Of a stretch of 64,000 nucleotides of DNA, positions 13,065-32,845 are shown one piece after another. The DNA is taken from the NCBI RefSeq assembly GCF_003201475.1, contig NZ_QJJK01000012.1, positions 124,001 to 188,000 on the forward strand, read 5' to 3'. Below the pieces are notes generated by a model. The model ran no database searches. It saw nothing but the letters and a program-made list of their open reading frames with translations, and was not told the origin of the DNA. Made by a program: the position numbers and the translations under genes. Position 1 is the stretch's first letter. Each line of letters opens with the position of its first letter. The stretch comes from Chelatococcus asaccharovorans. Lineage in GTDB: Bacteria > Pseudomonadota > Alphaproteobacteria > Rhizobiales > Beijerinckiaceae.

Positions 13065-13207
13065 GGCCCTCTTTCCTCAAGCAAGCGAACGCCTCGGCGC
13101 GTATCCCCCGCCGGTCGACGACCGCGGATCTCGCGCCTGGAATTTTTCTAAGGAGATTTCTGGCACAGCACGTCCATAGGTTCAAATTGCATTTTCCGCA
13201 ATCTATG

Positions 13208-13222
13208 ATAGGATTTTCCTAT
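13208..13222. promoter_or_regulatory. OxyR-type site ATAG-N7-CTAT between katA and oxyR
   Basis: ATAGGATTTTCCTAT is a perfect inverted repeat (ATAGGA-N3-TCCTAT) that fits the OxyR half-site ATAG-N7-CTAT. It ends one base before the oxyR GTG start and is 144 bases from the katA start, well placed for autorepression of oxyR and activation of katA. A second half-site with the usual 7-base spacing was not found. Confidence 0.7.
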
Positions 13223-13223
13223 T

Positions 13224-14147: not shown

Positions 14148-14300
14148 CGCCTGAGCGCACGAACCGGGCCGCGCCTTTTGTCGAACGGCCCTCCAGTATC
14201 CATGCTCTGAACGCCCTCCTTATTGCATGGAATGGCGATGATAGCCCCCGAATATAATTCATAATTGCCACTCGGTATTTCTCTTATTGGGGTGTGTATC

Positions 14301-15275: not shown

Positions 15276-15377
15276 TGCAGCAATCGTTCCCCGCGGCAGG
15301 TCCGATACTCACACCAGCGCTCGGTCCCGCAGCTTAGGGCAAGTCCGTCTTTTGCGGATTGGCTCCGCTCAGAAATA

Positions 15378-15393
15378 GACGAGCAAATTCACC
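15378..15393. repeat. Partial copy of dispersed repeat (gagcaaattcacc)
   Basis: GACGAGCAAATTCACC is identical to 28012-28027 in the longer palindromic repeat near 28.0 kb. It abuts the 3' end of the oxidoreductase gene, and the rest of the element is missing here. Confidence 0.55.
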
Positions 15394-15394
15394 A

Positions 15395-16390: not shown

Positions 16391-16423
16391 GTCAGTTCTC
16401 ACGCGACAGGGTGAATGGACAGG

Positions 16424-18150: not shown

Positions 18151-19064
18151 CGCGACAGGTCCCGCGAGGCGCGCCGGACATAGGCCCAGACGACGGCCAT
18201 GAGCAAAAACGTGAGGATCAGGGCAAGCGCGGCGCCATAGCCGAATTCCATGCCCGTATAGGCCCTGATGAAGGCATAGAGCGGCAATGTGTGGGTGTCG
18301 TATCCCGGGCCGCCGCCGGTCATCACCAGGATGACGTCGAGCGAATTCGCCACCCAGATCGTGCGCAGCAGGAGTGCCGTTGCGATGACGTCGGCAATGG
18401 ACGGCAGGGTGATCGAGAACAATTGTTGTCGGGGCGTTGCGCCATCGATTTCCGCGGCCTCGTAGAGCTCCTGCGGGACGGTCTGCAGGCCGGCAAGGAT
18501 CGTCACCGCGAAGAACGGAAACCCCTGCCAGATGAGGGCAAACATGATGGCGTAGAGGGCGGTCGACGGATTGGCGAGCCACGCGATCGGCGTCTCGATG
18601 ACCCCGAAGCGCAGCAGCGCGTCATTGATCACGCCAACATTGAAATCATACATCCAGGTCCACATCAGCCCGATGATCACGCTGGGAAGCGCCCAGGGAA
18701 TGATGACGAGCGAGCGGGCGAGGCTGCGCCACCAGAAGCTCTGGTTGAGGAGCAGCGCGGTCCCGAGCCCGAGCAGAAACTGCAGGCCGACGACACCGAC
18801 GATCCAGATGAAAGAATGGCCGAGCGAAATCCAGAACACCTCGTCGCCGAGGATCGCTCTGAAGTTTCCGAGCCCGATGAAGCGCGTGTCATCGGGGGCG
18901 TAGAGAAGGTAATCGTGCAGGCTGAGCCAAAATGTCTGAAGAACAGGAACCAGAACAACGGCGGCCGTCACCAGCAATGCGGGAAGCAGAAACCAGAACG
19001 GGGTGAAGTTGCGCCGCGATGGCGGCGCAACCGTGTGAGGATAAGACGACGTAATACTCGCCAT
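18147..19064 (-). CDS. Sugar ABC transporter permease (MalF type)
   Basis: A 305-residue CUT1-type permease with six membrane helices and the EAA loop (ELYEAAEIDGATPRQQLFSITLP). It follows the binding-protein gene by 8 bases and overlaps the second permease by 4 bases. Together the two permeases form the membrane channel of the importer. Confidence 0.93.
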   Translation of the reverse strand: MASITSSYPHTVAPPSRRNFTPFWFLLPALLVTAAVVLVPVLQTFWLSLHDYLLYAPDDTRFIGLGNFRAILGDEVFWISLGHSFIWIVGVVGLQFLLGLGTALLLNQSFWWRSLARSLVIIPWALPSVIIGLMWTWMYDFNVGVINDALLRFGVIETPIAWLANPSTALYAIMFALIWQGFPFFAVTILAGLQTVPQELYEAAEIDGATPRQQLFSITLPSIADVIATALLLRTIWVANSLDVILVMTGGGPGYDTHTLPLYAFIRAYTGMEFGYGAALALILTFLLMAVVWAYVRRASRDLSR

Positions 19065-19072
19065 GGGACTCG

Positions 19073-20299
19073 TCAGCCGTGGAAGTGCTGTTCGATGGCC
19101 TTCATCATATCATCGGGCGAGATCTGCCCGGTGAGCGCGCGCTGCATGTTGGTCGGCCAGATGCGGCCGATGAAATCGGGCGTCTTCGGGCTGTCCGGCA
19201 GCGGACCGGCGATCGACACCGACGCGCGGCTTGCGTCGACGAAGCGCTGCGGCACCCAGTCGGCATTGGCCTTCGACGAAACCGGCAGCTGGCCCGTGAG
19301 CTTCGTCAGCGCCGTATTGTTCTCGGCCGTCGACAGGAAGCTGATCCAGCGGAACGTCGCTTCCTTCGCCTTGCTCGCCGCAAAGATCGCGTTGGATTCG
19401 TCGCCGAAATAGGTCCAGCCCTTGCCGTCGGGACCGACCGGCACACGCTTCGCGGAGACCTTGTCGCCCAGCGCCGCCTGAATTTCGGCCGCGGAACCGA
19501 CGTGGTGGATCATCATGCCCGTCCGCCCGGCTTTAAAGGCGTCGACGATCTGCCGGAAGCTGTCGGTCGGAGCGGAGGCCGGCACGATCTTGTCCTTCGT
19601 CGCGAGATCGACATAGAACCGGTTGGCCGCGAGCGCCTTCTCGGTCACCATGCCGCCCTTGTCGAAGCTCGCGCCGCCACCAAGGACGAACGGCCCCCAG
19701 TTGTCGAAGCCGCCGGCGCCGCCGCGCATGCCGAAGCCCGCGACGTCGCCCTTGGTCAAGGCCTTGGCGACGGCCTGGAAGTCCTGGAACGTCTCGGGCG
19801 CCTTCAGGCCGGCTTGCTGCAGCAGGTCCTGACGGTAATACAGATAAATCACGACATATTGCAGAGGCAGATAGTACTTCTGCTGCGACCCGCCGCCGAC
19901 GATTTTCCAAATATTGTCGTCGATATCGGTCCGCGCGTTCCATTTCGCGAGGAACGGGTCCAGCGGCTCAAGCGCCTTCATCGAATGCAGGCGCGCTGCC
20001 CAGGACAGGCGCACCATGGCGCTGTCGGGCGCATTGCCGGCGACGAGGGCGGCAAAGAGCCGGGTCTGATAGTCATTGCCGCCGCCCCACGGGATCGCCT
20101 CGGCCTGGATCTTGATCCCCGGGTTTTCCTTCTCGAATTTGGCAACGAGGTCGGCGGGAGAGTTCTGCGGGTTATCGAAATGATACCACCAGCGCACGGT
20201 CGTCGGCGCCTGCGCGATCGCCGGCGCGGCGAGGGTAGAGGCGAGCGGTGCGCCGACGGCCGCGGCACCCACGAGTTTCAGGAAATCTCTGCGTTCCAT
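19073..20299 (-). CDS. Sugar ABC transporter substrate-binding protein, Tat signal
   Basis: A 408-residue family 1 solute-binding protein. The N terminus MERRDFLKLVGAAAVGAP has the twin-arginine consensus RRxFLK, so export is probably in folded form by Tat, with cleavage after APAIAQA (about residue 31). It is the first gene of a five-gene operon: binding protein, two permeases, epimerase, oxidoreductase. The sugar is not predictable; the enzymes downstream point to a cyclitol, sugar alcohol or rare sugar. Confidence 0.9.
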   Translation of the reverse strand: MERRDFLKLVGAAAVGAPLASTLAAPAIAQAPTTVRWWYHFDNPQNSPADLVAKFEKENPGIKIQAEAIPWGGGNDYQTRLFAALVAGNAPDSAMVRLSWAARLHSMKALEPLDPFLAKWNARTDIDDNIWKIVGGGSQQKYYLPLQYVVIYLYYRQDLLQQAGLKAPETFQDFQAVAKALTKGDVAGFGMRGGAGGFDNWGPFVLGGGASFDKGGMVTEKALAANRFYVDLATKDKIVPASAPTDSFRQIVDAFKAGRTGMMIHHVGSAAEIQAALGDKVSAKRVPVGPDGKGWTYFGDESNAIFAASKAKEATFRWISFLSTAENNTALTKLTGQLPVSSKANADWVPQRFVDASRASVSIAGPLPDSPKTPDFIGRIWPTNMQRALTGQISPDDMMKAIEQHFHG

Positions 20300-20534
20300 G
20301 TGTTTTCTCTCCCAGGATATTGTTCTTCGATTGCCGGGCGATCTCAGCTTCGCCCAACCGTCCCCTCCGGCGCCCCCGCCGATTTTTTGGGCGGAAACGC
20401 CGCGCCTTCCTGTCTCAGCATGTCAGCGCGCCTTGCCACCGCAGGCTCTCAACGGCGCTCGTCATCCTCTCTGACATGAACCAGCCTTGCCGCCGCCCCT
20501 CCTTCGCAGAGCAGAACGGAAGAGGCCATGACGA

Positions 20535-21197
20535 CTATCTGACCGCGTCCGACGGCTCGTCTTCGAGCACGATCGTATCGATATGCAGGCCGAGTTCATC
20601 GGCAAGCCCCTTTCCGTCGCGCGCAGCAAGCCGATCAATCAAGATGTCGTGGCGCCGCGCCGTCTCGTCGAGAGATCGGCGATGGCGCGGCGCCCACAGC
20701 TTGGACCGATGGGTATGCATGATGCACCGCGCGAGGATCTGCTCGAGCGCCTCGAGCTGCGAGAGCCTGAAGATCGCAAGATGAAAATCCTTGTCCGCCT
20801 CGATGAGCTGGAACTCATCGCCGGCGTCCGCGGCTTCGTTCATCGTCTCGCGAATGGCCATGATCGCATCGAGCGAGCGCGCGTCGACATTCCGGGTCGC
20901 GCGCTCCGCGCCGCGCATCTCGAGGCGCCGCCGCAGCGCCAGCATTTCCTCCGCCTCCTCGTCTTCCAGGCGCGTGACAACAGTGCCGCGGCGCCCGGTG
21001 CGAATGACCAGCCCATCTTCCTGCAGGCGCAGCAAGGCCTCCCGTATCGTGCCCTGACTGCAGCCGATCTCATGCGCGAGACCGAGTTCGGTCAGCACGG
21101 ACATCGGCTTGAGCTCGTTCAGCATGATCCGCCGCTTGACGATTCCGTAAACGTGATCGGCTGGACGGATGAGTTTAACGGCTGAGCTGTTCATCAT
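20535..21197 (-). CDS. FadR/GntR-family regulator (FCD domain)
   Basis: A 220-residue regulator with a GntR winged helix-turn-helix (about residues 12-75, LAHEIGCSQGTIREALLRLQEDGLV) and an all-helical FCD effector domain with the metal-binding pattern DKDFHLAIF, HTHR and a late His (ELGLHIDTI). I place the start at one of two adjacent ATGs (21197 or 21194), because a near-perfect palindrome overlaps the longer alternative start at 21218. It lies upstream of, and in the same direction as, the sugar importer operon, 235 bases from its first gene, and is its probable regulator. Confidence 0.85.
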   Translation of the reverse strand: MMNSSAVKLIRPADHVYGIVKRRIMLNELKPMSVLTELGLAHEIGCSQGTIREALLRLQEDGLVIRTGRRGTVVTRLEDEEAEEMLALRRRLEMRGAERATRNVDARSLDAIMAIRETMNEAADAGDEFQLIEADKDFHLAIFRLSQLEALEQILARCIMHTHRSKLWAPRHRRSLDETARRHDILIDRLAARDGKGLADELGLHIDTIVLEDEPSDAVR

Positions 21198-21215
21198 TAT
21201 AGATATCGATAATGA
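21194..21215. promoter_or_regulatory. 22-bp palindrome at the FadR-type regulator start
   Basis: TCATTAT-N8-ATAATGA is a 22-base palindrome with a single mismatched pair that covers the start codon region of the regulator gene. The position suggests autorepression, though the sequence does not match the usual GntR TNGTNNNACNA core. Confidence 0.55.
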
Positions 21216-21359
21216 CATCGAGAACGATCGTCAAGCTGAGTCATCGCGGGACGCGTGCGAAGAAGCGCGACCGCGTCCCCTTTGCGGGAGCTGAAAATGC
21301 GCGCCGGAAAAAGACGAGCGTCCGAAAGCGGGAGCGCAGATTGCCGGGCCGCCGTGCTA

Positions 21360-21403: not shown

Positions 21404-22069
21404 TCACGCCTGGACGCGGGCGCGGACGATCGTGAGGACGGTTTCGAGATGATCCCGGATCGCCGCCTCGGCGCGGGCGGCGTCGCGGGCGACGAGGGCA
21501 TCGGCGATGGCGACATGCTGCTTTTGCAGTTGAACCACCTCGGCAGCGTTACCGGCGGGTGCAAGCTCGCTGTCGGAATATTCGTAGAATTCCTCGATGA
21601 GGTTAGCGAGACGCGTGCTCGCCGACAGTTCACCGAGATGGAGGTGGAACTTCCGGTCGAGATTGGCGCGCTGCTGTACCGCCATCGTCGGCAAGGCCTT
21701 CAGAATGCTCTGGCATTCCGCGCGAAAGGCGGCCAGCTCCGCATCGCTTGCCCGCATGCAGATCAGCCGCGCCGCAGCGCCTTCAAGGCTTTGGCGCAGC
21801 ACGATGACTTCCGAGAGCTTCGAGCTGGTGTCCTCCACCACGACGCCACCGCCGGGCAGGCGACGCACGAGCCCTTCCAGCTCGAGCTTTGAAATGGCCT
21901 CGCGCACCGGGGTGCGACTGACATTCAGGAGTTTCGCGATGGCTGTCTCGACGAGCCTGGACTGGACGGCAAAGCGCCCCTGCAAGATGGCGCGCCGCAG
22001 CTCCCGGTGGACATGCTTGACCACCGGCTCGCGTTGCACAGCTTGCAAAAGCTCGATCTCGCCATTCAT
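21404..22069 (-). CDS. GntR-family regulator (FCD domain) of the 21-33 kb locus
   Basis: A 221-residue regulator with an N-terminal GntR helix-turn-helix (AIAKLLNVSRTPVREAISKLELEGLV at about residues 43-68) and a helical FCD domain with the ligand/metal pattern DRKFHLHLGEL and a later His (DHLETVL). It is the last gene of the leftward unit starting at 27.6 kb, separated from the permease by 106 bases. I propose it binds the ACTGCATGCAG motif found upstream of that unit and in the 29.9-kb divergent region. The effector would be the imported compound or a product. Confidence 0.87.
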   Translation of the reverse strand: MNGEIELLQAVQREPVVKHVHRELRRAILQGRFAVQSRLVETAIAKLLNVSRTPVREAISKLELEGLVRRLPGGGVVVEDTSSKLSEVIVLRQSLEGAAARLICMRASDAELAAFRAECQSILKALPTMAVQQRANLDRKFHLHLGELSASTRLANLIEEFYEYSDSELAPAGNAAEVVQLQKQHVAIADALVARDAARAEAAIRDHLETVLTIVRARVQA

Positions 22070-22175
22070 TGAGAGCCGAACCCCACTCCTTCGTCAGCAT
22101 CATGAAAAGCCATAGCTTCCCCTGCCGTCATCGGCCAGCCCCAAAATTGCGTCGCCGCGCGCCCTGCCATCGCGA

Positions 22176-22994
22176 TCATCCCCGCGATGACAGTTTCTGA
22201 ATGAGGGCGACGAGCCATAACCCGAGAACGGAGATCAGTGTCATCAAGGTGGATACGGCCGCAATGGTCGGATCGATGATCTGCTGAACATTCACCCAGA
22301 TCTGCCGCGGCAAGGTCGGCGCGGTCAGCTTGGTCAAAAACAGGCTGAGGATGATATCGTCGAAGGACGCGATGAAGGCGAACAAGGCTGCGCTGATGAT
22401 CGCCGGGCGCAACATGGGAAAGGTGACATGGCGCAGTGCGGAGAGCGGCGAGGCGCCGAGCCCGCGCGCCGCCCATTCCAGCCGCCTGTCGAAACTGTAG
22501 AGCGCTGCCGAAATGATCATGACGACATAGGGCATGGCGATCAGCGTATGGGCCGCGACGAGCCCGAAGGTCGTCCCGAGGATCCGCATGCGGACATACA
22601 GAAAATAAAGGCCCACGGCGATGATGATCTTCGGGATGATCAGCGGGCTCATCAGGAAGATGCGAACCGCGTTCTTTCCGGGGAAGCTCGAGCGCACGAG
22701 CGCCACCGAAACCATGAAGCCCAGCACGAGGGAGAGGATCGCCGTCAAGGTGGCTACCAGAAAGCTGATGCGCGTCGCGGTCATCCACATGGGGTTCGAG
22801 ACATAGGCCTCATACCAGCGCAGCGAAAAGCCCTGTGGCGGAAACTCCATGATGTCGCCGGGCGAGAACGAGACGACGACGATCACGACGATCGGCGCGA
22901 AGAGGATGGCGAGAACCGTGATCGAGAAGGCCGCCAGAAGAATACTGACGGGCGATCGGCGCGAGGGCGCCAGGGTCATGCGTTGCGTGCTCAT
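22176..22994 (-). CDS. Spermidine/putrescine-type ABC permease (PotC-like)
   Basis: A 272-residue permease with six membrane helices and the EAA-type loop (LEWAARGLGASPLSALRHVTFPML) of the PotC branch. The start overlaps the upstream permease stop by ATGA, which is why the longer open frame is not used. It forms the membrane channel with the PotB-like protein. The substrate class of this branch covers polyamines, opines and related small cations or amides. Confidence 0.91.
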   Translation of the reverse strand: MSTQRMTLAPSRRSPVSILLAAFSITVLAILFAPIVVIVVVSFSPGDIMEFPPQGFSLRWYEAYVSNPMWMTATRISFLVATLTAILSLVLGFMVSVALVRSSFPGKNAVRIFLMSPLIIPKIIIAVGLYFLYVRMRILGTTFGLVAAHTLIAMPYVVMIISAALYSFDRRLEWAARGLGASPLSALRHVTFPMLRPAIISAALFAFIASFDDIILSLFLTKLTAPTLPRQIWVNVQQIIDPTIAAVSTLMTLISVLGLWLVALIQKLSSRG

Positions 22995-23872
22995 CGCGCA
23001 CCTCCCCACATCTTGTCGAAATCGACGTAACGGTTGGCAAAGATCTGGATGGCGACAGAAACGACGAGCAGGATCATCGACAAGGCAGCTGCCAGTGTCC
23101 AGTCCAACGCTTCGTTGATCTGCAACGCGATGACGAGCGGCAGGGTCGTCTGGTCCGGACCGCCGAGCAAGGCCGGCGTGATATACATTCCGACAGCCAG
23201 CATGAAGACAAGAAAGCTGCCCGCGAATACACCAGGCTTCGTCAAGGGGACGAAGATCGCAAAGAACGCGCGTAACGGTGAAGCTCCGAGATTCCGCGCT
23301 GCAAGCATCAGGTTGCGGTCGATATTGTTCATCACACTGAACAGACACAGGATCATATACGGCAGCAAATAATAGGTCAGGCCGACGAGAACGGCCGTAT
23401 GCGTGCCGAGGAAGGGCATGGGCTCATCGATCCAGCCGAAGCTTATCAGGGTCGTGTTCACAAGCCCTTGCCGGCCGAGAATGACAAGCCAGGCATAGGT
23501 GCGCACCAGCCCGCTGCTCCAGAACGGGATGAGCACGAAAGCCATGAGCACGACGGTCCATGTCTTGTTGAGCCCGACGAGCCAATAGGCCACGGGATAG
23601 CCGATGCCCAAGGTCAAGACGAGGGTCACCACGCCGATGACCATCGTATAGCCAAGAACCCACCAGTACACGGGCTCACTGAAGAATTCGGCATAACCGG
23701 CAAACGTAAAGCCATCACTCCATATGCTGCTCCACAGCATTTGCAGAAGTGGCCAACCGAAGAAAACGACATAGAAGACGGCCGCCGGTGCCATGAGCCA
23801 GGGAAAGCGCCCGGCGAGGCGCCTGGGCCCTCGGCCGGCCGCCGCAGGGATCGGGAAGGTGGTATCCGTCAT
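22991..23872 (-). CDS. Spermidine/putrescine-type ABC permease (PotB-like)
   Basis: A 293-residue permease with six membrane helices and the loop LMLAARNLGASPLRAFFAIFVPL. I chose the ATG before TDTTFPIPAAAG over an upstream in-frame start that lacks homology. It is separated from the binding-protein gene by 234 bases containing a perfect 10-base stem-loop. Confidence 0.91.
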   Translation of the reverse strand: MTDTTFPIPAAAGRGPRRLAGRFPWLMAPAAVFYVVFFGWPLLQMLWSSIWSDGFTFAGYAEFFSEPVYWWVLGYTMVIGVVTLVLTLGIGYPVAYWLVGLNKTWTVVLMAFVLIPFWSSGLVRTYAWLVILGRQGLVNTTLISFGWIDEPMPFLGTHTAVLVGLTYYLLPYMILCLFSVMNNIDRNLMLAARNLGASPLRAFFAIFVPLTKPGVFAGSFLVFMLAVGMYITPALLGGPDQTTLPLVIALQINEALDWTLAAALSMILLVVSVAIQIFANRYVDFDKMWGGAR

Positions 23873-24015
23873 CGGTTGCTCAACCTCATGGAGATCCGGC
23901 ACGCCGGGGCAGAAACCCCGGCCCGGCTGCACCCGCCGACATCACGCAAGACCATGGTTTGGATTGCCGCTCTATTTTGCTTGGATGGTCTAATACGAAC
24001 CTGCGTGATCTCTGC

Positions 24016-24047
24016 CCTTCCGGCGTTGCGCGGGCTTCGCCGGAAGG
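24016..24047 (-). promoter_or_regulatory. Stem-loop between binding-protein and permease genes
   Basis: CCTTCCGGCG (24016-24025) and CGCCGGAAGG (24038-24047) form a perfect 10-base stem with a 12-base loop. No T run follows on the minus strand, so it is more likely an mRNA-stabilising or attenuating hairpin, keeping binding protein in excess over permease, than a full terminator. Confidence 0.6.
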
Positions 24048-24106
24048 TCCATTTTCGACTACGCGATCTCGAATGTGCACATACTGGACACGTCCGCTGA
24101 GTTGCT

Positions 24107-25180
24107 TCAGCGGACCGCCAGCCGCGCCCAACCCTTCGCGATATCGGGGCGAGACTTGCTCAGGAACACCGTATCGATGGGACGCCCGAGGGCCACCGTC
24201 TCCGGATTGCCGGGCAGGAGTTTGGCGACCTCCGGCGATATGAACTTATAGGCGTCGACGTTGATCGGCCCGTAATTGGTGGGCGCGGCGATCTTCGCAA
24301 GGACTTCGGGCTGGCACACATAAGCCAGGAACTTCATCGCATTATCCTTGTTAGGCGCACCCTTCGGGATCGCGAAGAAGTTCGGGAAGGTGAGATGCTG
24401 GTTCCAGTTGATCGCAACAGGCCGACCGGCTGCGACCAAAGGCCCGACACGGCCGTTGGGGATGATCACCATGTCGGCCTCGCCGTCGGCAAGGTATTGT
24501 GCGACCTGCGCATAGCCATCGGCGAAGATCATCGCGCTGCCGAGCGACTTGATCTTGTCGAAGGCTGCATTCAGATCGAACGGATAGAGCTTCGCAAGGT
24601 CACCATTGATTGCGAGCGTGGCCTGCTCGACCGGCGGACGGGTCGCGCCGATCGAGGCGCGCTTGCCCGGGAAGGCCTCGACGTTCCAGAAGTCCGCCCA
24701 TGTCTTGGGAGCCTTGTCCTGCGGAACCTTGCTCGTGTTATAGGCCATGACCATAGCCCATTGGATGGTAGGCAGGGCAAAGGCCTTCTTCATGTCAGCC
24801 GGGATCCCGGCCTGACAGGACGCGGGAATCTTCGACCAATCGATCTTCTCGAGAAGTCCGGCCTCAGCCAGTGCGGTCATCGTATCCGCAGAGATATCGA
24901 CGACATCCGCTTCGACATTGCCGGACTCGATCATGACCTTGAGCTTGGCGAAATTATAGCCGGAGGCCTCGGAAACCTTGACGCCGCTCTGTTCCGCGAA
25001 AGGCTTGAACCATTCTTTGCTCTGCGCGTCCTGATAGCTGCCGCCCAGCGAGAGAACGACCAGTTCGCCGGCGTTCTTATCCTGCGCGACCGCGGCCCCC
25101 GCCCCGACCAGCGCAACAGTCACGGAGAGGGCGGCCAAGCTCCGCTTGAGCCGGCCCGAAATCTGACGTCCTTGCAACAT
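24107..25180 (-). CDS. Spermidine/putrescine-type ABC substrate-binding protein
   Basis: A 357-residue periplasmic binding protein of the PotD/extracellular solute-binding family 6-8 type. It has a Sec signal peptide with AAVAQ cleavage near residue 33. The typical early strand ELVVLSLGGSYQDAQSKEW and the hinge TWADFWNVEAFPGKRA are present. The ATG is preceded by AGAGGAGA, and the longer frame upstream lacks homology. It is encoded between the ATPase and the permeases in the 27.6-21.4 kb unit. The ligand is unknown. Confidence 0.9.
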   Translation of the reverse strand: MLQGRQISGRLKRSLAALSVTVALVGAGAAVAQDKNAGELVVLSLGGSYQDAQSKEWFKPFAEQSGVKVSEASGYNFAKLKVMIESGNVEADVVDISADTMTALAEAGLLEKIDWSKIPASCQAGIPADMKKAFALPTIQWAMVMAYNTSKVPQDKAPKTWADFWNVEAFPGKRASIGATRPPVEQATLAINGDLAKLYPFDLNAAFDKIKSLGSAMIFADGYAQVAQYLADGEADMVIIPNGRVGPLVAAGRPVAINWNQHLTFPNFFAIPKGAPNKDNAMKFLAYVCQPEVLAKIAAPTNYGPINVDAYKFISPEVAKLLPGNPETVALGRPIDTVFLSKSRPDIAKGWARLAVR

Positions 25181-25247
25181 GCGAAATCTCCTCTGGATTG
25201 TATTTTTTGGATCAGCGAAATTGCGTCGTTCTCGGCTGCATCCTCTT

Positions 25248-26324
25248 TCAAGTCTGCAGTATGACACTATCGGTCGTTTTCCATCCCACCATCAGTTCAT
25301 CGCCTTCGACAATTGGCATGCCGATGCCGCGATTCGGGCGTTTGACCTTCACTTCCACGCCTTCCGCGATGCGAACCCTGTAAAGGGAGGAATCGCCTAA
25401 ATAGATCTCGCCGGTTATGCGTCCGGGAACCTTGTTGGGGAGCGGATCATCGGCCTTGCACAGCCGCAACCGTTCCGGCCGCAGGAAGATGACGGCGGAA
25501 GACCCGGCCGGTGCATCCGTCGGCGCGATCGCGACGGAGTGACCGGAGATGAGTTCGCATCGGCGCGCCTCCCCCTGGTCGCCGAGACGGCACGGGATGA
25601 AATTCGACTCGCCGATGAAATTGGCAACGAAGCGGTTCTGCGGCCGCTCGTAGATGTCCCGCGGGCTGCCGTAGCTGGAAATGCGCCCGCCATCCATGAC
25701 CGCGACGACGTCCGACATGGTCAGCGCCTCTTCCTGGTCATGGGTGACATAGATCACCGTCAGGCCAAGCTCGCGCTGGATACCCTTGATCTCTTCCTGC
25801 ATCTGCAGGCGCAGTCGCCGGTCGAGCGCGCCGAGCGGTTCATCCATCAGCACGAGCGAGGGACTGAACACCATGGCGCGCGCCAGGGCCACACGCTGCT
25901 GCTGTCCGCCCGACAGCTGTTGCGGATAGCGCTTGGCCAAGGCCTCCAGCCCGACCAGCTTGACGAAGGTGGCTATCCGGTCCTCCGCTTCCGACCGGGC
26001 AACACCGCGCATCCGGAGCGGAAACCCGACATTCTCCCGCACGGTCATATGAGGAAACAGCGCGTAGCTCTGAAAGACCATGCCCATATCCCGCTTGTGG
26101 GCGGGTACGCGCGTCACCGAACGGCCGTTCACGAGAATTTCGCCAGCGGTCGGGTCGACGAAACCGGCTATCATCATCAATGTCGTCGTCTTGCCGGAGC
26201 CGCTCGGTCCGAGCAAGGTGAGAAACTTGCCTGGCTCCAGATCGAGCGAGACGCCGAGCACGGCGCCACTGCCATCGTAGTATTTCTCGAGGTCGCGTAG
26301 GGAAAGGCTTGCACCCTGCGGCAT
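25248..26324 (-). CDS. Spermidine/putrescine-type ABC ATPase (PotA-like)
   Basis: A 358-residue ATPase energising the importer. It has Walker A GPSGSGKT (about residue 39), a Q-loop in MVFQSYALFPHMTV, the signature LSGGQQQRVALARA, Walker B LVLMDEPLGALD and the switch His in YVTHDQEEA. The C-terminal TOBE domain (about residues 280-350) is typical of the PotA/FbpC group. It lies just downstream of the monooxygenase-like gene. Confidence 0.94.
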   Translation of the reverse strand: MPQGASLSLRDLEKYYDGSGAVLGVSLDLEPGKFLTLLGPSGSGKTTTLMMIAGFVDPTAGEILVNGRSVTRVPAHKRDMGMVFQSYALFPHMTVRENVGFPLRMRGVARSEAEDRIATFVKLVGLEALAKRYPQQLSGGQQQRVALARAMVFSPSLVLMDEPLGALDRRLRLQMQEEIKGIQRELGLTVIYVTHDQEEALTMSDVVAVMDGGRISSYGSPRDIYERPQNRFVANFIGESNFIPCRLGDQGEARRCELISGHSVAIAPTDAPAGSSAVIFLRPERLRLCKADDPLPNKVPGRITGEIYLGDSSLYRVRIAEGVEVKVKRPNRGIGMPIVEGDELMVGWKTTDSVILQT

Positions 26325-26375
26325 TTCACCCTCGTCATTCCTGGTCTTCGAACAGATGCGCAGCGCGTATTAGCT

Positions 26376-27635
26376 TCACGCCACAGCTGACGACGGCTCA
26401 CGGGCGATGCCGAGATCGGCCCAGGTCTTGGGCTTGTCGACGAGCGCGCCATATTTCTGTTTCGGCGCGTAGTGCCCTGCAACGTCGGCATCGGCGACGA
26501 GGCGCAGCAACTGCGATGCCCGCGTATGCAGCGAGGCGGTACGCACGTCCCGCCACAAGCGCTCGAGCGGAGCCGTCTTGAAGAGCGCGCGCGTGCCGAC
26601 CATGTCGAACACCTTGGTGATGACGTGGATCGCCGTCTCGCGAGCCGTGTGATGGGCACGCAGCGAGGCGAGCGCAGCGTCACCGAAGCGCTCCTGCTCC
26701 CACAGTGAGTTGGCAATGAGACAGGACCCGCGCGAGGCCTGGACCTCACCCGACAATTCGCCGAGCGTGACCATCAACCCTTCCTCGTTCTGCAGGAACG
26801 GCCGCGCCCTGAGCACCTCCAGCACATAGTCGAGCGCGCCCTGGGCCGCGCCGAGCAGGTGGAACGCCTGCGACAGCTCGAGGGTATAGGGATCCTTCTG
26901 CACGAAATCGCCGGGTTCGCCCAGAACGTTGTCCCAGGGGATGAAGACATTGTCGAGCTTGGCGCTCCAGCTCACGGAGCTGCGCAGCCCGATGATATCG
27001 TCCCAGCCGTGGCGGGAGAAGGTGAGGCCGGGGCTGTCCTTCGTGACGATAGACAGGGTCAGCCCGTCGGTGGCGGCATTGGCCCCCGGGGCAATGCTCC
27101 AGTAGAGCATATAGTCCGCGACCGGCGCATTGGAGCAGAAGTGCTTCGCGGCATTGGCCAGGAAGCCGCCCTTTACCGGCGCCATCTCGGCCTGGAAGAT
27201 CAGCTTCCGCGTCGCATCCTTGGCAGCCGTCTGCTCTTGGTGGTTCACCTCGCTGCCAAGGGAGCCCATGATGGCGCCCTTGGTGACGACATCGCCCAGA
27301 ATGCGGCGCTTCTGCTCGTCGTTGCCGAGGCGCGCGACCGCACCGCACTGGTGATAGTGAATGATGAGATCCCAGCCGGTCGCGGCACAAGCGCGTGAGA
27401 CCTGCTCGGTCACCAGGTAAGCCGTCAGATGTGCGTTGCCGGTGGCAGGCCCCTCCCCGCCGAACTGCCGCGGCACAGCAAGGTTCAAGATTCCCGCCTC
27501 ACGCAGCAGCGCAAATGTCTCGGTCGGAAACGCCGCCGCCTCATCGTCACGGCGCGACGCTTTCGCAATGTCCGGCGCGAGAGAACTGGCAATATCGACC
27601 CAGCGCTGTTGCTCTGCGGTGAGGGTGAAAGCCAT
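26376..27635 (-). CDS. Flavin-dependent monooxygenase, acyl-CoA-dehydrogenase fold
   Basis: A 419-residue protein of the acyl-CoA dehydrogenase type 2 family, close in organisation to group D flavin monooxygenases (DszC/HsaA-like). The N-terminal helical domain, the middle domain (GSLGSEVNHQEQT, the flavin-side loop) and the C-terminal domain ending in PLERLWRDVRTASLHTRA are recognisable. The RDV...H pattern is typical of the oxygenase branch rather than true dehydrogenases. Such enzymes need reduced FMN from a separate reductase, and a flavin reductase lies in the divergent half of this locus (32342-32845). The ATG has AAGGGA upstream. It is the first gene of the leftward ABC-importer unit. 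Confidence 0.82.
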   Translation of the reverse strand: MAFTLTAEQQRWVDIASSLAPDIAKASRRDDEAAAFPTETFALLREAGILNLAVPRQFGGEGPATGNAHLTAYLVTEQVSRACAATGWDLIIHYHQCGAVARLGNDEQKRRILGDVVTKGAIMGSLGSEVNHQEQTAAKDATRKLIFQAEMAPVKGGFLANAAKHFCSNAPVADYMLYWSIAPGANAATDGLTLSIVTKDSPGLTFSRHGWDDIIGLRSSVSWSAKLDNVFIPWDNVLGEPGDFVQKDPYTLELSQAFHLLGAAQGALDYVLEVLRARPFLQNEEGLMVTLGELSGEVQASRGSCLIANSLWEQERFGDAALASLRAHHTARETAIHVITKVFDMVGTRALFKTAPLERLWRDVRTASLHTRASQLLRLVADADVAGHYAPKQKYGALVDKPKTWADLGIAREPSSAVA

Positions 27636-27708
27636 GACACATCCCTTTCGATAGCGGCAGCTTGAGCCCGCCTTGTAAGGCGCTGGCTTCAGGGAAGCGC
27701 GCCGGTTT

Positions 27709-27726
27709 ACTGCATGCAGAATGCAG
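27709..27726. promoter_or_regulatory. Candidate GntR operator 1 (ACTGCATGCAGAATGCAG)
   Basis: Contains the perfect 10-base palindrome CTGCATGCAG (27710-27719), 75 bases upstream of the monooxygenase start. The 16-base stretch ACTGCATGCAG-N-ATGC recurs at 29928-29943 in the divergent promoter region of the same locus. I assign it to the GntR regulator of the locus by inference. Confidence 0.6.
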
Positions 27727-27895
27727 CACTTTGCGACCAAGTCAAACCTGAAATGCACGGATTCTGTGCGAAAGCGGTGAGGCAAATGCCCATGAATGCG
27801 GCGATCTGCGCGCAGGCCAAGTCATCGCCTTGGCATTGCAGGTCTTTTCAAGCTTGCCGTGTGATGTTCCCGCGCGAAAATTCGGCAATACGATT

Positions 27896-28000
27896 TAGAG
27901 CATATTCGGTGAACTCCGGTTCACCGAATATGCTCTAGGCCTTTGTTTTTACGCATTTTCTTCACGCGAACCGATGTCCACTTCGCTCGAAAATGCTCTA
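27896..28000. repeat. Dispersed palindromic repeat, family 1 copy 1
   Basis: TAGAGCATATTCGGTGAA (27896-27913) and its exact complement (27920-27937) form an 18-base perfect stem with a 6-base loop. A conserved tail follows (acgcattttcttcacgcgaacc ... cttcgctcgaaaatgctct). The same element recurs at 46226-46330. The layout resembles RIME-like rhizobial intergenic repeats. The right half is translated as the C terminus of the M20 peptidase gene. Confidence 0.88.
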
Positions 28001-29421
28001 GAGCAAAAATCGACGAGCAAATTCACCGGCTTAGATGGTATCAGACGATTCCATCTAAGCCGGATTTGCTCGAGGAGAAGCGCATAGGCTTCCTGCCCGC
28101 GGCGGAAATTGTCCAGGCGCAGAAATTCGTCCGGCGCATGGAAGTTCTCGTCCGGCAGGCCGAAGCCGTAGATCACCGTATAGGCATCGAGTTCCCGGCG
28201 AAAAAGATCGAGGATCGGAATGGAGCCGCCCGAGCGGGTGTAATAGGGCTCGCGCCCGTAGAGCGTGACAAGAACATCGCGCGCGGCCCGATTAGCGGGA
28301 TGATCCATGGGAATGAGATAAGGCGAGGCGGCATTGGGCAGGATATTGACGGTGATCTCAATACCATTGAGCCGCTGGCTTTCGAGATGGCGCTTGACGG
28401 CCAGCGCGACCGTCTCCGGCGCTTGATCCGGCACCAGCCGACAGGTGACCGCCGCGCGCGCCGACGACGGAATGATCGTCTTCACGCCAGGTCCGGTATA
28501 GCCTCCCGTGATGCCATTGATCTCGAAGGTCGGCCGTATCCCGATGCGTTCGCGGGTCGTGAACCCGACCTCCCCCGCCAGCGCCGACACCCCGATCGCG
28601 CGGCGATAACGGGCTTCGTCGAAGGGAATGGCCGCGAGCCGGCGCCGCTCGTCATCGCTCGGCGCGCGCACATCGTCATAGAAGCCGGGGATCGTCACCC
28701 GGCCGGATGCATCGTGGATACTTGCAAGGAGGGCGACGAGCGCGTGGACCGGATTGGCGACCGCGCCGCCATAGAGGCCTGCGTGAAGGTCTGTCGCAGG
28801 CCCCTGGGCCACGACTTCGAGAGCACAGATACCGCGCAGCCCGACACGGAGATCCGCCTCGGTTGCGCTCCACTGCCAGCCATCGGCACTGATCGCCATG
28901 TCGCAGGCGAGACGCGTGCGATGAAGGGCCACGAAATCCGGCAGATCAGGACTGAGGATTTCTTCCTGGCCTTCGAACAGCACTTTCACATTCACGGGCA
29001 GGCGCCCGTGCGTCTTCAGCAATGCCTCCAGCGCCAGAATAGGCGCCAGCATATTGCCCTTGTCGTCGGAAGCCCCGCGCGCATAGATGCGTCCATCCCG
29101 GATCGTCGGGGAGAACGGCGGATCGGTCCAGGCCTCGACGGGATCCACGGGCTGCACGTCGAAATGCCCGTAGATCAGCACCGTAGGCTGGCCGGGCGCG
29201 CCAAGCCAATCCCCATAGACCATCGGATAGCGCCCGGCGCGGAGCACCTCGACATCGGCGAGGCCAGCGGCTTGTAGCCTCGCCGCGACCCAAGCCGCGG
29301 CGCGATCGACGTCCGGCAGATGGGCCGGATCGGCGGAGATGCTCGGGATACGCAGGAAGTCCTTGAGATCCTCGACAAAGGAGGCCTGTCGCTCCTCGAG
29401 ATAGTCCCGCCAATCCGCCAT
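27949..29421 (-). CDS. M20-family metallopeptidase/dipeptidase
   Basis: A 490-residue cytoplasmic zinc peptidase of the M20/M28 dipeptidase group that hydrolyses a C-terminal peptide or amide bond. Metal-ligand residues are H86 (YGHFDVQP), D119 or D120 (GASDDKG) and the catalytic Glu pair E153-E154 (EGQEEI). The last 40 residues or so are encoded by two repeat elements (28008-28071 and 27896-28000) and look foreign to the family, so the native stop has been replaced. It is transcribed leftward with the SnoaL-like gene, 12 bases downstream of it. It probably hydrolyses the compound taken up by the locus. Confidence 0.88.
   Translation of the reverse strand: MADWRDYLEERQASFVEDLKDFLRIPSISADPAHLPDVDRAAAWVAARLQAAGLADVEVLRAGRYPMVYGDWLGAPGQPTVLIYGHFDVQPVDPVEAWTDPPFSPTIRDGRIYARGASDDKGNMLAPILALEALLKTHGRLPVNVKVLFEGQEEILSPDLPDFVALHRTRLACDMAISADGWQWSATEADLRVGLRGICALEVVAQGPATDLHAGLYGGAVANPVHALVALLASIHDASGRVTIPGFYDDVRAPSDDERRRLAAIPFDEARYRRAIGVSALAGEVGFTTRERIGIRPTFEINGITGGYTGPGVKTIIPSSARAAVTCRLVPDQAPETVALAVKRHLESQRLNGIEITVNILPNAASPYLIPMDHPANRAARDVLVTLYGREPYYTRSGGSIPILDLFRRELDAYTVIYGFGLPDENFHAPDEFLRLDNFRRGQEAYALLLEQIRLRWNRLIPSKPVNLLVDFCSRAFSSEVDIGSREENA
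28015..28071. repeat. Dispersed palindromic repeat, family 2 copy 1
   Basis: Nested arms GAGCAAAT/ATTTGCTC and CCGGCTTAGATGG/CCATCTAAGCCGG enclose a 12-base loop. The right half (28044-28071) is identical over 28 bases to 52414-52441, and the left part is identical over 16 bases to 15378-15393. It lies inside the 3' end of the M20 coding frame. Confidence 0.88.
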
Positions 29422-29433
29422 CGCTATCCCCCC

Positions 29434-29850
29434 TCAGGCTGCGCCGTCGAGCTGGCGCTGGAGCACGAGGCTGTCGCGCAGCACCCAGCTCTCCTGGATC
29501 TGGCCATCGGCCACCCGGTAGATCCCGATGCCCGGAACGGTTACCGCACGGCCCGTCGCCGCGCGCCCCTGAAACTCGCCCTGATGGGTCGCTAGCATCG
29601 TGTAACGGACGACGACCTTCTCGCCGTCAACGAGGACGTCATCCAGCGTGAAGCGCACGTCCGGAAAGGCCGACACGAGCGAATCATAGTTCTTGTGGAT
29701 ACCGGCCGGACCTGCGAGCACGCCGCGGGCACCCGCGTGATTGAGGTATCCGGGGGCGAACAGACTGTCGATGGCATCGGGCTGACGCTTGTCCCAGACC
29801 ACATCATAATAGTTGAGGACGACGGCGCGGGGTGAAGCGGGTTCGTTCAT
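29434..29850 (-). CDS. SnoaL-like polyketide cyclase/ester cyclase family protein
   Basis: A 138-residue protein of the NTF2-like SnoaL fold: NYYDVVWDKRQPDAIDSLFAPGYLNHAG, a conserved FPDVRFTLDDVLVDGEKVVVRYT core and the closing RVADGQIQESWVLRDS. Members act as cyclases, hydrolases or binding proteins on small molecules, and specific chemistry cannot be inferred. The ATG has CGGAG upstream; the longer frame was rejected. It is the first gene of the M20 unit and faces the M24 genes across the 29851-30017 promoter region. Confidence 0.8.
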   Translation of the reverse strand: MNEPASPRAVVLNYYDVVWDKRQPDAIDSLFAPGYLNHAGARGVLAGPAGIHKNYDSLVSAFPDVRFTLDDVLVDGEKVVVRYTMLATHQGEFQGRAATGRAVTVPGIGIYRVADGQIQESWVLRDSLVLQRQLDGAA

Positions 29851-29927
29851 GGGAAACTCCGGAAGAAAGTGGACGACGATCTTGGACGCGCTTGACAATC
29901 GAGAGGCGCCGGTTCCAGATTAAACAC

Positions 29928-29943
29928 ACTGCATGCAGCATGC
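29928..29943. promoter_or_regulatory. Candidate GntR operator 2 (ACTGCATGCAGCATGC)
   Basis: Second copy of the ACTGCATGCAG-N-ATGC motif, in the 167-base region between the divergent SnoaL-like and M24 genes. A TTGACA (29892-29897) lies upstream of it on the plus strand, so the motif could sit at or just beyond a -10 element and block transcription; the -10 itself is not clear. Confidence 0.6.
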
Positions 29944-30017
29944 CATAGCCAATTCGCGATGATTGCCCCTCAATCCGGCTTTAAGGGCAGCCGTCGTTCC
30001 GCCGCGAAAGTGCGTCC

Positions 30018-31118
30018 ATGTCCGACCTGTTCTCCACGCGCCGCGACCGTGCGCGCAGGGCCCTGCGATCCGCCGATATCGACCTGCTGCTTTTGGGGCC
30101 CGGGCCAGGTTTTCGCTATTTCGCGGGGAAAAACGCGATCGCCACCGAGCGCTTCGTCGCGCTCGCGATCGGCGCCGACGGCCGCGACCGGATTTTCACG
30201 CCACGCTTGCAGGCGCCGCTTTATGCAGGCATCGCCGGCGTGGACATCGCGATCTGGGACGAGGCCGAGAATCCGCTGGAGCATGTCGCGCTCGTCGCAC
30301 AGGAGGCCGCCGCCAGGACCGTTGCGGTCAATCCCGAGTTCTGGAGCGGTTTTCTTCTCGCGCTCAAGGCGCTCCTGCCTGACATCGCGCTCCGTAGCGG
30401 CGCCTCGGTCATCGACGGTCAGCGCCGCACCAAGGGCGCGGAGGAAATCGCGGCGTTAGAGGCTGCGGCTGCGCGCATCGATGCCGTATGGGCCCGGTTC
30501 TGCGCGACGACACCCTCCATGCTCGGCCGCACGGAACTGGAGCTCAGGGCCGATATCGACCGGCTCATGCGGCAGGAGGGTTTCAGCGAGGTCAGCTGGG
30601 TCGATGTCGGGGCCGGCGCCAATGGCGCCTCGCCGCTGCACCACGGCAGCGATCATGTGATCCGCGCCGGGGAGCCGGTGGTCTTCGATTTCGCCGGCTG
30701 CTTCGACGGCTACTACGGCGATATCTGCCGCGTCGCGGTTTCCGGCGAACCAAGCCCCGAATTTCAGGCCATTTATGACATCGTCCACGACGCGCAGGAG
30801 GCGGCGTTCCGGGCCGTGCGTCCGGGTGTTCCCGCTGAGGAGATCGATGCGATCGCGCGGCGGATCATCAGCGACAAGGGGTTCGGATCCTACTTTACCC
30901 ATCGCCTCGGCCACGGTATCGGCCTCGCGGCCCATGAGGAACCCTATATCGTGGCGGGCAATGCGACGCCGCTCGCGGCGGGAATGGTTTTCTCCAATGA
31001 ACCCGGCATCTACATTCCGGAGCGCTGGGGCGTTCGCATCGAAGATATCGTTGTCGTCACGGATGACGGCGCCCGGCGCCTGACCCAATCTCCCCGCCAT
31101 CTCGTTCGCCTCGGCTGA
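30018..31118 (+). CDS. M24-family Xaa-Pro-type peptidase
   Basis: A 366-residue aminopeptidase P/prolidase-like enzyme. It has an N-terminal creatinase-like domain (residues 1-130) and a C-terminal pita-bread catalytic domain. All five metal ligands are visible: Asp in VFDFAGC, Asp in YYGDICR, His in RLGHGIG, Glu in FSNEPG and Glu in VRIEDIV. It is the first gene of the rightward unit, followed 18 bases later by a second M24-fold protein. It likely cleaves an imido or amide bond in the substrate imported by the locus. Confidence 0.87.
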   Translation: MSDLFSTRRDRARRALRSADIDLLLLGPGPGFRYFAGKNAIATERFVALAIGADGRDRIFTPRLQAPLYAGIAGVDIAIWDEAENPLEHVALVAQEAAARTVAVNPEFWSGFLLALKALLPDIALRSGASVIDGQRRTKGAEEIAALEAAAARIDAVWARFCATTPSMLGRTELELRADIDRLMRQEGFSEVSWVDVGAGANGASPLHHGSDHVIRAGEPVVFDFAGCFDGYYGDICRVAVSGEPSPEFQAIYDIVHDAQEAAFRAVRPGVPAEEIDAIARRIISDKGFGSYFTHRLGHGIGLAAHEEPYIVAGNATPLAAGMVFSNEPGIYIPERWGVRIEDIVVVTDDGARRLTQSPRHLVRLG

Positions 31119-31136
31119 GCCACCGGAAGTATCGCC

Positions 31137-32270
31137 ATGTCCACACCTAAGGTCTTCGCTTTTCCGCTCGAAGAATATGCCGCGCGCGTGGCAGTCCTAC
31201 GCGAACGCATGAAGGATGTGGGCGCCGATGTGCTCATCATCGATGAATTCGAGCACCTTGCCTATTTCACCGGACATATTCCGACCGCCGCCATGTACCA
31301 GTGCTGCCTGATGCCTGCAGCCGGCGAGCCGGTGATGATCGTGCGCTCCCTCGACGGTCCTATGCTCGAAGAAATGAGCTGGACCAAAGATCATATTCTC
31401 TTCGATGACGGGGACGATCCGATCGCGATCGTCATCGCCGAATTGAAACGCCGCGGCTTCGGGAAAAGCCGCATTGCGGTGGAAACCGACTCTCACATTC
31501 TTCTTCCCAAACGCCTCAAGGCGTTCAAGGCGGCCCTTGATGAGGCGACTTTCATCGATTTCGGTGGCCATATGTGGGAGCAGCGGCTGCGGAAATCGCC
31601 CCGCGAGATCGACTATCTCCGGCGCTGCGCCGGCATCTGCGACGTCGCGACGCTTGCCGGTGCAGAGGCATCGCGCGCCGGCGTGCCCGAACGTGAGGTC
31701 GCGGCCGCCATCACGAGCGCTGCCCTGAAAGCCGGAGCCGATAATACGCGGCTTCTCCTGATGCAGTCCGGTCCCCGCTCCAGCACCCTGCATGGCGGCC
31801 TGGGCAACCGCATCCTGGCCAATGGCGATATCGTCCATATCGAGATGGTGCCGCATCTGCGCGGCTATACCGCGCGCTCCATGCGCCCCGTCTCGGTCGG
31901 CGCCCCCAGCGCGCGACAGCGAGAGGCCGCGCAGGCTCTCATCAGCCTCCAGGATGCGCAGTTCCAGGCCATGCGGCCGGGCGCTCATGCCGGTGAAGTC
32001 GACGCCATTCTGCGCGAGGGCGTCCTGAAGGCAGGCCTGCGCGACAGCTACACCAACATCACGGGCTACACCCTCGGGCTCGTGACGATCCCACGCACCA
32101 GCGATTTCACGCGCGTCTTCCTGGCCAATTCGGCGTGGCGCCTCGAAGAGGGCATGGTGTTTCACATGTATACCTGGGCCGAGGGAATGGCGTTCAGTGA
32201 AACCATGCTGGTCACCGCGACCGGCGCCGAACGACTGACGCAGATCGACAGAAAGCTCTTTATTTCCTAG
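31137..32270 (+). CDS. M24-fold protein lacking canonical metal ligands
   Basis: A 377-residue two-domain protein with the same fold as the preceding gene, but with most metal-ligand positions changed: VHIEMVPHLRGYTARSMRP where the two Asp would be, GYTLGL in place of GHGIG, and HMYTWAEG in place of the NEPG loop. Only the last Glu (FSETML) may remain. Creatinase and related amidinohydrolases use this fold without metal, so a metal-independent hydrolase for a small amidine, urea or amide is possible. The Shine-Dalgarno is GGAAG. It is co-transcribed with the upstream M24 peptidase and the downstream flavin reductase. Confidence 0.78.
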   Translation: MSTPKVFAFPLEEYAARVAVLRERMKDVGADVLIIDEFEHLAYFTGHIPTAAMYQCCLMPAAGEPVMIVRSLDGPMLEEMSWTKDHILFDDGDDPIAIVIAELKRRGFGKSRIAVETDSHILLPKRLKAFKAALDEATFIDFGGHMWEQRLRKSPREIDYLRRCAGICDVATLAGAEASRAGVPEREVAAAITSAALKAGADNTRLLLMQSGPRSSTLHGGLGNRILANGDIVHIEMVPHLRGYTARSMRPVSVGAPSARQREAAQALISLQDAQFQAMRPGAHAGEVDAILREGVLKAGLRDSYTNITGYTLGLVTIPRTSDFTRVFLANSAWRLEEGMVFHMYTWAEGMAFSETMLVTATGAERLTQIDRKLFIS

Positions 32271-32341
32271 TGATCGGCTTGCGCAGGCCGGCAGCCGAGA
32301 GCCCGAAACAGGGCGTCTTTGAGAGCGCATGGAGCACCGAC

Positions 32342-32845
32342 ATGCCCGACATTTCGTTCCCCCCATTTGACAGTGCAAGCTTCCGCCGGGCGCTTGGGCA
32401 TTATGCAACGGGTGTCGCAGTCATCACGGGCCTCGGCGACAAGGATGAGCGCTTCGGACTGACGGTCAGCTCCTTCAACTCCGTCTCGCTCGACCCGCCG
32501 CTTGTCCTTTTCAGCATCGATCGCGCGGCACGCAGCCTCCCCCTGCTCCTGGCGGCCGAAGGTTATGCCGTCAATATCCTGTGCCGGAACCAGGACCACC
32601 TGTCGAACCGCTTCGCGCGATATGGTGGAGACAAATGGACCTCTGTCGAACACACACACGGCCATGCACAGGCGCCTCTCCTGCCAGATACGCTGGCTCA
32701 TTTCGAATGTGTCCATTACGCGCATTACGATGGCGGAGATCATGTGATCTGCGTCGGACGGGTGCTGACATTTTCCTGGAACGAGGCGGAGCGCCCCCTC
32801 ATCTTCTTCCGCGGGGCCTATCGCGACCTTCATCTGGAGGCGTGA
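32342..32845 (+). CDS. Flavin reductase (NADH:FMN oxidoreductase family)
   Basis: A 167-residue flavin-reductase-like FMN-binding domain protein (HpaC/DszD type): ALGHYATGVAVITGLGDKDERFGLTVSSFNSVSLDPPLVLFS in the N-terminal half, then the family CxGRVL strand (VICVGRVLTF). It reduces free FMN with NADH for a partner monooxygenase. The best candidate partner is the acyl-CoA-dehydrogenase-fold protein at 26376-27635, across the locus. The start is the ATG with GGAG upstream. The gene ends just before a truncated gpsA. Confidence 0.88.
   Translation: MPDISFPPFDSASFRRALGHYATGVAVITGLGDKDERFGLTVSSFNSVSLDPPLVLFSIDRAARSLPLLLAAEGYAVNILCRNQDHLSNRFARYGGDKWTSVEHTHGHAQAPLLPDTLAHFECVHYAHYDGGDHVICVGRVLTFSWNEAERPLIFFRGAYRDLHLEA

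Follow-up and report, generated by a model that had tools for sequence, protein, structure and literature searches.

Why would a bacterium place a Pot-type importer, a flavin monooxygenase and several hydrolases next to a single GntR-family regulator? The question is raised by eleven genes in a 64,000-nucleotide stretch of Chelatococcus asaccharovorans DNA (contig NZ_QJJK01000012.1, positions 124,001 to 188,000; hereafter the window). The initial annotation, made from the letters of the DNA, had described these genes as one GntR regulon with a shared operator motif, and our analysis supports this description. We consider it likely that the locus is one regulon for import, oxygenation and hydrolysis, controlled by an FCD-GntR protein through the putative operators CTGCATGCAG; this reading draws on the joint conservation of the genes, the conservation and placement of the operator, and residue signatures in the encoded proteins. 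The locus probably encodes a real but undescribed breakdown pathway. The protein families themselves are ordinary and known, and it is their arrangement that is new. Profile matches from Pfam and NCBIfam bear out the gene set named at the outset (Table 1), and the earlier claim of an undescribed route fits an open-access subset of the literature, among whose listed matches we found no description of such a gene set or pathway, part of them being judged by title and the start of the abstract.

Conservation of the locus in two classes

The genome_contigs collection was scanned with two short peptide patterns, a procedure that can miss relatives and that returned 11 loci. Four Chloroflexi loci were set aside at 23-24% identity. 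Six were orthologous (Azorhizobium oxalatiphilum, Erwinia typographi, Izhakiella australiensis, Ancylobacter defluvii, Salipiger abyssi and Maritimibacter alkaliphilus), and a seventh, from Mesorhizobium sp. Z1-4, was of a paralogous type discussed below. With the window, three congeners and one locus on the Salipiger abyssi plasmid pPABY7, this makes 11 orthologous loci from Alpha- and Gammaproteobacteria.

The monooxygenase, the four importer genes and the genes for GntR, M20, SnoaL and both M24 proteins are found together, in divergent units, in 11/11 orthologous loci, and the flavin reductase gene in 9/11. Hence, all units proposed to belong together do stay together in relatives, the reductase being the one gene that was not found at every locus. 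Gene order differs among the loci, as do the positions of the regulator and reductase genes. In the three congeners the locus recurs with both operator sites kept and with proteins of 81-97% identity; GntR orthologues are 50-94% identical across the set. One lineage with the locus is a marine isolate.

The monooxygenase is rare in the sampled species. It was present in 4/60 genomes of the relatives sample (own genome and three congeners), in 1/397 of the order sample and 1/385 of the class sample (own genome in each), in 1/295 and 1/247 members of the families of Salipiger SY10-16 and Mesorhizobium Z1-4 (themselves), in 2/198 of the Azorhizobium family (itself and Ancylobacter), in 2/149 of the Erwinia typographi family (itself and one more), and on 4 of 72,556 plasmid records at E 1e-60; these samples partly overlap, thresholds ranged from 1e-60 to 1e-110, only part of the candidates was scored in the large samples, and distant homologues lie outside the counts. 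The locus occurs in two classes and on a plasmid, and this scattered distribution suggests that it has spread horizontally.

Putative operators at the outward promoters

The 16-base motif ACTGCATGCAGNATGC has two exact copies in the 64-kb window, at 27709-27724 and 29928-29943, both on the forward strand, compared with a mean of 0.00 per shuffle in 100 dinucleotide shuffles. Both positions had been reported in the initial annotation, together with the absence of any other copy in the window, and the exact search agrees. The 15-base form CTGCATGCAGNATGC, which lacks the leading A, has two exact and two one-mismatch matches in the whole genome (7,254,611 bases), and both exact copies sit at this locus; the 16-base form has two exact and 12 two-mismatch matches. 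Looser versions are uninformative: when up to one mismatch is allowed, the palindrome matches the window 8 times; the shuffles give a mean of 3.48 and reach the observed count in 2/100 cases.

ACTGCATGCAGNATGC consists of a 10-bp palindrome, CTGCATGCAG, and a third half-site, formerly written as "-N-ATGC", whose centre lies 9 nt from that of the palindrome. Additional half-sites at a distance of 7-12 nt from the centre have been described for GntR sites (PMC4494728). The unit conserved between lineages is the palindrome and not the whole 16-base motif.

The two sites lie in the two intergenic regions in which the three outward units start, as expected from the claim that the motif covers the outward promoters of the locus. 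At the monooxygenase promoter of the window and its Azorhizobium counterpart the operator overlaps the candidate -10 box, and at the M24 promoter of the window it lies just downstream of the candidate -10 box of that promoter. The layout of candidate -35, -10 and operator at the monooxygenase promoter is alike in 4/4 genus members. Since the conserved sites coincide with candidate promoters or adjoin them, we infer that the whole locus would be repressed.

At outward promoters, CTGCATGCAG occurs twice in the window, in each of the three congeners, in Azorhizobium and in Ancylobacter, and three times in Salipiger SY10-16 and in Maritimibacter; there are also three copies in the promoter region of pPABY7 (read from the printed sequence). 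We compared five of these loci (window, Azorhizobium, Ancylobacter, Salipiger SY10-16 and Maritimibacter) with 3000 first-order simulations of the same intergenic regions, and at each of them the observed count was reached in 0/3000. The Erwinia and Izhakiella loci contain no CTGCATGCAG and instead carry TGTATACA twice each at the corresponding promoters, a count again reached in 0/3000. The motif is thus kept at orthologous promoters, as CTGCATGCAG in 9/11 loci and as TGTATACA in the other two. The operator form changes jointly at all sites of one locus (TGCATGCA or TGTATACA): the window and eight other orthologous loci have the GC...GC form, and Erwinia, Izhakiella and the Mesorhizobium paralogue the canonical GT...AC form. 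Another member of the Erwinia family has a mixed form, TGTATGCA, before its monooxygenase (that promoter only). The count of the shorter core TGCATGCA was reached in 0/3000 for Salipiger SY10-16 and Maritimibacter. Genome counts, window shuffles and intergenic simulations together rule out a chance motif.

Unit order and orientation vary between lineages, as they might if the three units were independent neighbours and the motif a chance or unrelated palindrome. However, the motif is common to the promoters of distant lineages and has changed jointly within a locus (TGCATGCA or TGTATACA), and a paralogous operon joins the genes. Independence is already contradicted by these observations and is highly improbable.

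The putative operator CTGCATGCAG resembles the sites of FCD GntR repressors. The window regulator has the GntR winged helix and the FCD domain (Pfam), and its presumed site is a palindrome at target promoters that is kept among orthologues. A described system of this kind is Atu1419 of Agrobacterium fabrum, a VanR-group FCD GntR repressor of hydroxycinnamic acid breakdown; the tetramer represses a catabolic locus via 10-bp palindromes, ATGTATACAT, and DNA looping, two sites 190 bp apart forming the looping pair (PMC7797058). Both systems have a catabolic locus with 10-bp palindromes at its promoters, ATGTATACAT and CTGCATGCAG have a G at position 3 and the frame TG....CA in common, and the TGTATACA of Erwinia and Izhakiella is the core of ATGTATACAT. 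In contrast, Atu1419 controls other genes, and the window operator has GC...GC where GntR sites usually have GT...AC (consensus from PMC4494728). The likeness is one of operator and FCD domain. The outermost sites are separated by 190 bp in Ancylobacter and by 182 bp in both Salipiger and Maritimibacter, which resembles the described 190-bp pair as if for the same loop; the two sites of the window are 2.2 kb apart. The regulators of the window and of Erwinia have the same DNA-contacting helix, SRTPVREA. In the wing, the TGCATGCA group has GG, and Erwinia and Izhakiella have GK, which is only a lead because there are few independent lineages.

A DszC-like monooxygenase and two different M24 proteins

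What reaction might the monooxygenase catalyze? Its structure model, with a mean predicted local distance difference test score (pLDDT) of 72, has DszC as the best fold match (rank 1); acyl-CoA dehydrogenases follow closely in the fold list and are ahead of DszC by sequence profile. The enzyme keeps the first His of HYH, the Ser of KHFCS and the His of SLH, which we take to be catalytic positions in DszC. The Glu of the YEGT type, presumably the catalytic residue of acyl-CoA dehydrogenases, is absent and replaced by SLHTR, the His of which is invariant in 8/8 sequences of each of the sets A1 and A2. A true acyl-CoA dehydrogenase is ruled out by the absence of this Glu. The fold, the His/Ser/His positions and a partner reductase in 9/11 orthologous loci are all those of a DszC-like two-component monooxygenase, with a flavin reductase likely to be used in the same way. 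The two differ in that the proteins are 23% identical and the window locus has a different importer and different hydrolases; no DszA- or DszB-type gene was recognised among the locus genes.

The best fold match is a sulfur-oxidising enzyme, and the pathway could accordingly serve sulfur scavenging: the monooxygenase would oxidise a thioether or thioamide in a peptide-like compound (an S-substituted cysteine in N-acyl or dipeptide form would be one example), after which the hydrolases would free the amino acid. SfnB, a sulfur acquisition protein, is among the family matches (91.2 bits, cut-off 430.9), and M20 and M24 proteins suit peptide-like conjugates. However, monooxygenases of the acyl-CoA-dehydrogenase fold also act on amines and aromatic rings, so a likeness to DszC at such identity does not fix the target atom. 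Moreover, the eleven genes include no sulfonate importer or CysB-type regulator, and control by an FCD-GntR protein points to a carbon or nitrogen source. We regard sulfur scavenging as unlikely.

The initial annotation had listed two M24-fold hydrolases. Both do have the M24 fold, but the second is without metal ligands. In an alignment to PepE, whose corresponding positions we take to be the metal ligands, M24a keeps D, D, H, E and E. In M24b, both metal-binding Asp residues are replaced and the HGxG-type motif has become GYTLG. The M24b model (mean pLDDT 78) is closest in fold to ectoine hydrolase and then to creatinases. It has the change of the two prolidase metal-binding Asp residues in common with these enzymes (DoeA/EutD and creatinase) and differs from them in its identity of 20-23% and in scores far under the ectoine hydrolase cut-offs (174.5 bits of 575 and 103.2 of 613). 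The M20 protein scores above the cut-off of a dipeptidase family. Ectoine catabolism by doe/eut genes also involves the DoeB deacylase, DoeC/DoeD and an ectoine importer, and no other gene of this pathway was recognised among the locus genes; together with the M24b scores, this rules out ectoine breakdown proper.

A related idea is that nitrogen is scavenged from a cyclic derivative of an amino acid, ectoine-like or other. Oxygenation would make the ring unstable, and M24b would open it in the way that DoeA acts on ectoine. The fold of M24b fits, and an Ehu-annotated importer, not a Pot-type one, occurs in an Aminobacter plasmid set and at one Arthrobacter monooxygenase locus. On the other hand, the M24b scores are far too low for a family member, Ehu annotations can be over-called, and, to our knowledge, ectoine breakdown needs no oxygenase. 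We regard this explanation as doubtful.

Importer and proposed pathway

The closest solved relatives of the binding protein are γ-aminobutyric acid (GABA), GABA-sensor and agropine binding proteins, among them Atu4243 (GABA) and AgaA (agropine) of Pot-type importers; mannopine binding proteins are more distant. In the GABA sensor Pf622, R205 is a residue of the site lining, and D228 forms a bond with the amino group of GABA (PMC12999171). The window protein keeps the Arg of the GABA site but has Asn in place of the amine-binding Asp, a position occupied by Ser in Erwinia and Izhakiella and by Glu in the paralogues. Because the Arg, presumably the holder of the carboxylate, is kept and the Asp is not, these residues suggest that the ligand is a carboxylate without a GABA-like free amine. 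With Asn or Ser in orthologues, a free GABA-like amine is not favoured. The substrate is probably a carboxylated amide- or amino-acid-like compound, and the earlier guess of an amide, a peptide or an amine is plausible.

We hypothesize that the FCD-GntR repressor binds CTGCATGCAG in the two intergenic regions and shuts the three units until a pathway acid is present. The four-gene importer would then take up a small carboxylated amide- or amino-acid-like compound. By analogy with their families, the flavin reductase would give reduced flavin to the DszC-like monooxygenase, which would add one oxygen, and the SnoaL protein might conceivably rearrange or hydrolyse the oxygenated intermediate. 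The metal-free M24b, the metal-dependent, prolidase-like M24a and the dipeptidase-like M20 would cut C-N or amide bonds, and the ordinary amino acids released could supply carbon or nitrogen.

Paralogous operon and related gene sets

The same genome contains a second, co-directional operon (contig C2, about 205464-214469; 32-53% identity) for a monooxygenase, binding protein, ATPase, two permeases, flavin reductase, M24a, M24b and GntR, without M20 and SnoaL. This paralogous operon was also read in one congener and in Mesorhizobium sp. Z1-4, and its monooxygenase is present in 4/4 genus members sampled. In the same 4/4, a putative operator, CTGTATCCCGTATACAG, follows a TTGACA box and immediately precedes the start codon. 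Since the paralogous operons do without M20 and SnoaL, these two look like additions of the window variant to a core of importer, monooxygenase, reductase, M24a, M24b and GntR.

Plasmids carry further versions. Plasmid p1 of Aminobacter niigataensis DMFA1 (1914-16512) has the monooxygenase, flavin reductase, M24a and M24b with an Ehu-annotated (ectoine type) importer; a polysaccharide deacetylase and LysR regulators also belong to this set, which is followed by a second monooxygenase-M24 pair. Two Arthrobacter plasmid loci were read, and in one of them M24b adjoins the monooxygenase. M24b relatives are found on 69 plasmid records at E below 1e-50, including pPABY7, Aminobacter and Arthrobacter. 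Of eight others that were opened, 6/8 have importer genes nearby (Dpp-type, Pot-type or unspecified), and in Mesorhizobium AR10 and Rhizobium binae p4 none was seen near M24b in an incomplete gene table. M20, CapA, PuuD-like or DdpX genes recur near M24b on the eight records. The importer, M20, CapA and PuuD-like neighbours favour peptide-like or amide substrates of M24b. On the conjugative rhizobial plasmids Sinorhizobium pHRC017 and Rhizobium pT136b, M24b relatives have importers of the dipeptide type as neighbours, together with CapA-family genes and genes resembling gamma-glutamyl-GABA hydrolase; this may be another peptide-like pathway.

Taken further, the DszC-like monooxygenase, flavin reductase, metal-free M24b and metallo-M24a may form an oxidative-hydrolytic module that is undescribed, has spread horizontally and serves a class of modified amino acids or dipeptides. 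Its importers would be interchangeable (Pot-type, or Ehu-type on the Aminobacter plasmid), and its GntR lineage would be one whose operator and regulator changed jointly between TGTATACA and TGCATGCA. We see this proposal as evenly balanced between right and wrong.

Several observations weigh against a single regulon with a fixed set of enzymes. Out of 3000 simulations, the count of the shorter core TGCATGCA was reached in 3 for the window, 1 for Azorhizobium and 9 for Ancylobacter, and one further CTGCATGCAG lies inside the Ancylobacter M20 gene. The candidate promoters are weak consensus matches and are not mapped, and the SnoaL promoter of the window could not be placed. The models of the monooxygenase and M24b are of moderate confidence (mean pLDDT as above), and the absence of the GABA amine-binding Asp speaks against a free-amine ligand like GABA. 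The stretches fetched for Azorhizobium and Ancylobacter yielded no flavin reductase. On rhizobial and Pantoea plasmids, relatives of M24b adjoin importer, M20, CapA or PuuD-like genes; the eight M24b plasmid records have no monooxygenase match at 1e-60, and no M24 gene was seen in 25 kb read at the other Arthrobacter monooxygenase locus. The link between the enzymes is thus not a strict one.

The locus directs attention to a compound that bacteria scattered over distant lineages are equipped to use, and it names the genes, promoters and operator with which this compound could be found. The regulator would be a ready biosensor for it. The difference in operator between lineages amounts to a natural experiment in the joint change of a GntR repressor and its sites.

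Features of the locus and its surroundings

TABLE 1 Genes, putative operators and candidate promoter elements of the locus (window positions)
Feature	Position	Strand	Remarks
FCD GntR-family regulator	21404..22069	-	Last gene of monooxygenase-importer unit; proposed locus repressor; Pfam GntR 60.6 bits, FCD 72.6 bits
ATP-binding cassette (ABC) importer permease	22176..22994	-	Pfam BPD_transp_1
ABC importer permease	22991..23872	-	Pfam BPD_transp_1
PotD-like periplasmic binding protein	24107..25180	-	
PotA-type importer ATPase	25248..26324	-	NCBIfam potA 366.1 bits, cut-off 355.6
Acyl-CoA-dehydrogenase-fold flavin monooxygenase, DszC-like	26376..27635	-	
M20 dipeptidase-like metallohydrolase	27949..29421	-	Pfam M20; NCBIfam PRK08201 dipeptidase 540 bits, cut-off 441
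SnoaL-like (ester cyclase) protein	29434..29850	-	Pfam SnoaL
M24a, prolidase-type	30018..31118	+	Pfam M24
M24b, ectoine hydrolase / creatinase-like	31137..32270	+	
Flavin reductase, proposed monooxygenase partner	32342..32845	+	HpaC/HsaB-type matches below equivalog cut-offs (searched as 32333-32845)
Putative operator palindrome CTGCATGCAG, before monooxygenase unit	27710..27719		Third half-site ATGCAG at 27721-27726
Putative operator palindrome CTGCATGCAG, between divergent SnoaL-M20 and M24 units	29929..29938		Partial third half-site ATGC at 29940-29943
Candidate -35 TTGACT, monooxygenase unit	27740..27745	-	Weak consensus match, 4/12 mismatches
Candidate -10 CATTCT, monooxygenase unit	27718-27723		Overlaps palindrome and its third half-site
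Candidate -35 TTGACA, M24 unit	29892..29897	+	Candidate -10 at 29916, upstream of operator; 3/12 mismatches

The neighbouring stretch 15395-21218 contains a second GntR-family gene; judged by eye from the translations, it also seems to encode an ABC importer of the sugar type, an oxidoreductase of the Gfo/Idh type and a xylose-isomerase-like protein. This would be a separate catabolic cluster, and it contains no exact CTGCATGCAG.

A dispersed repeat of about 105 bases spans 27896-28000 and contains an 18-base inverted repeat (27897-27914 / 27919-27936). Of 121 candidates 40 were scored, and among these, 39 are other long matches in the same genome; four of them are on the same contig, including one within the window (46225-46329). 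The M20 gene ends in the repeat at 27896-28000, and the three congeners and Azorhizobium match M20 residues 1-453 of 490. Because residues 454-490 have no match in the three congeners, the insertion of the repeat may have changed the C-terminal end of the M20 protein.

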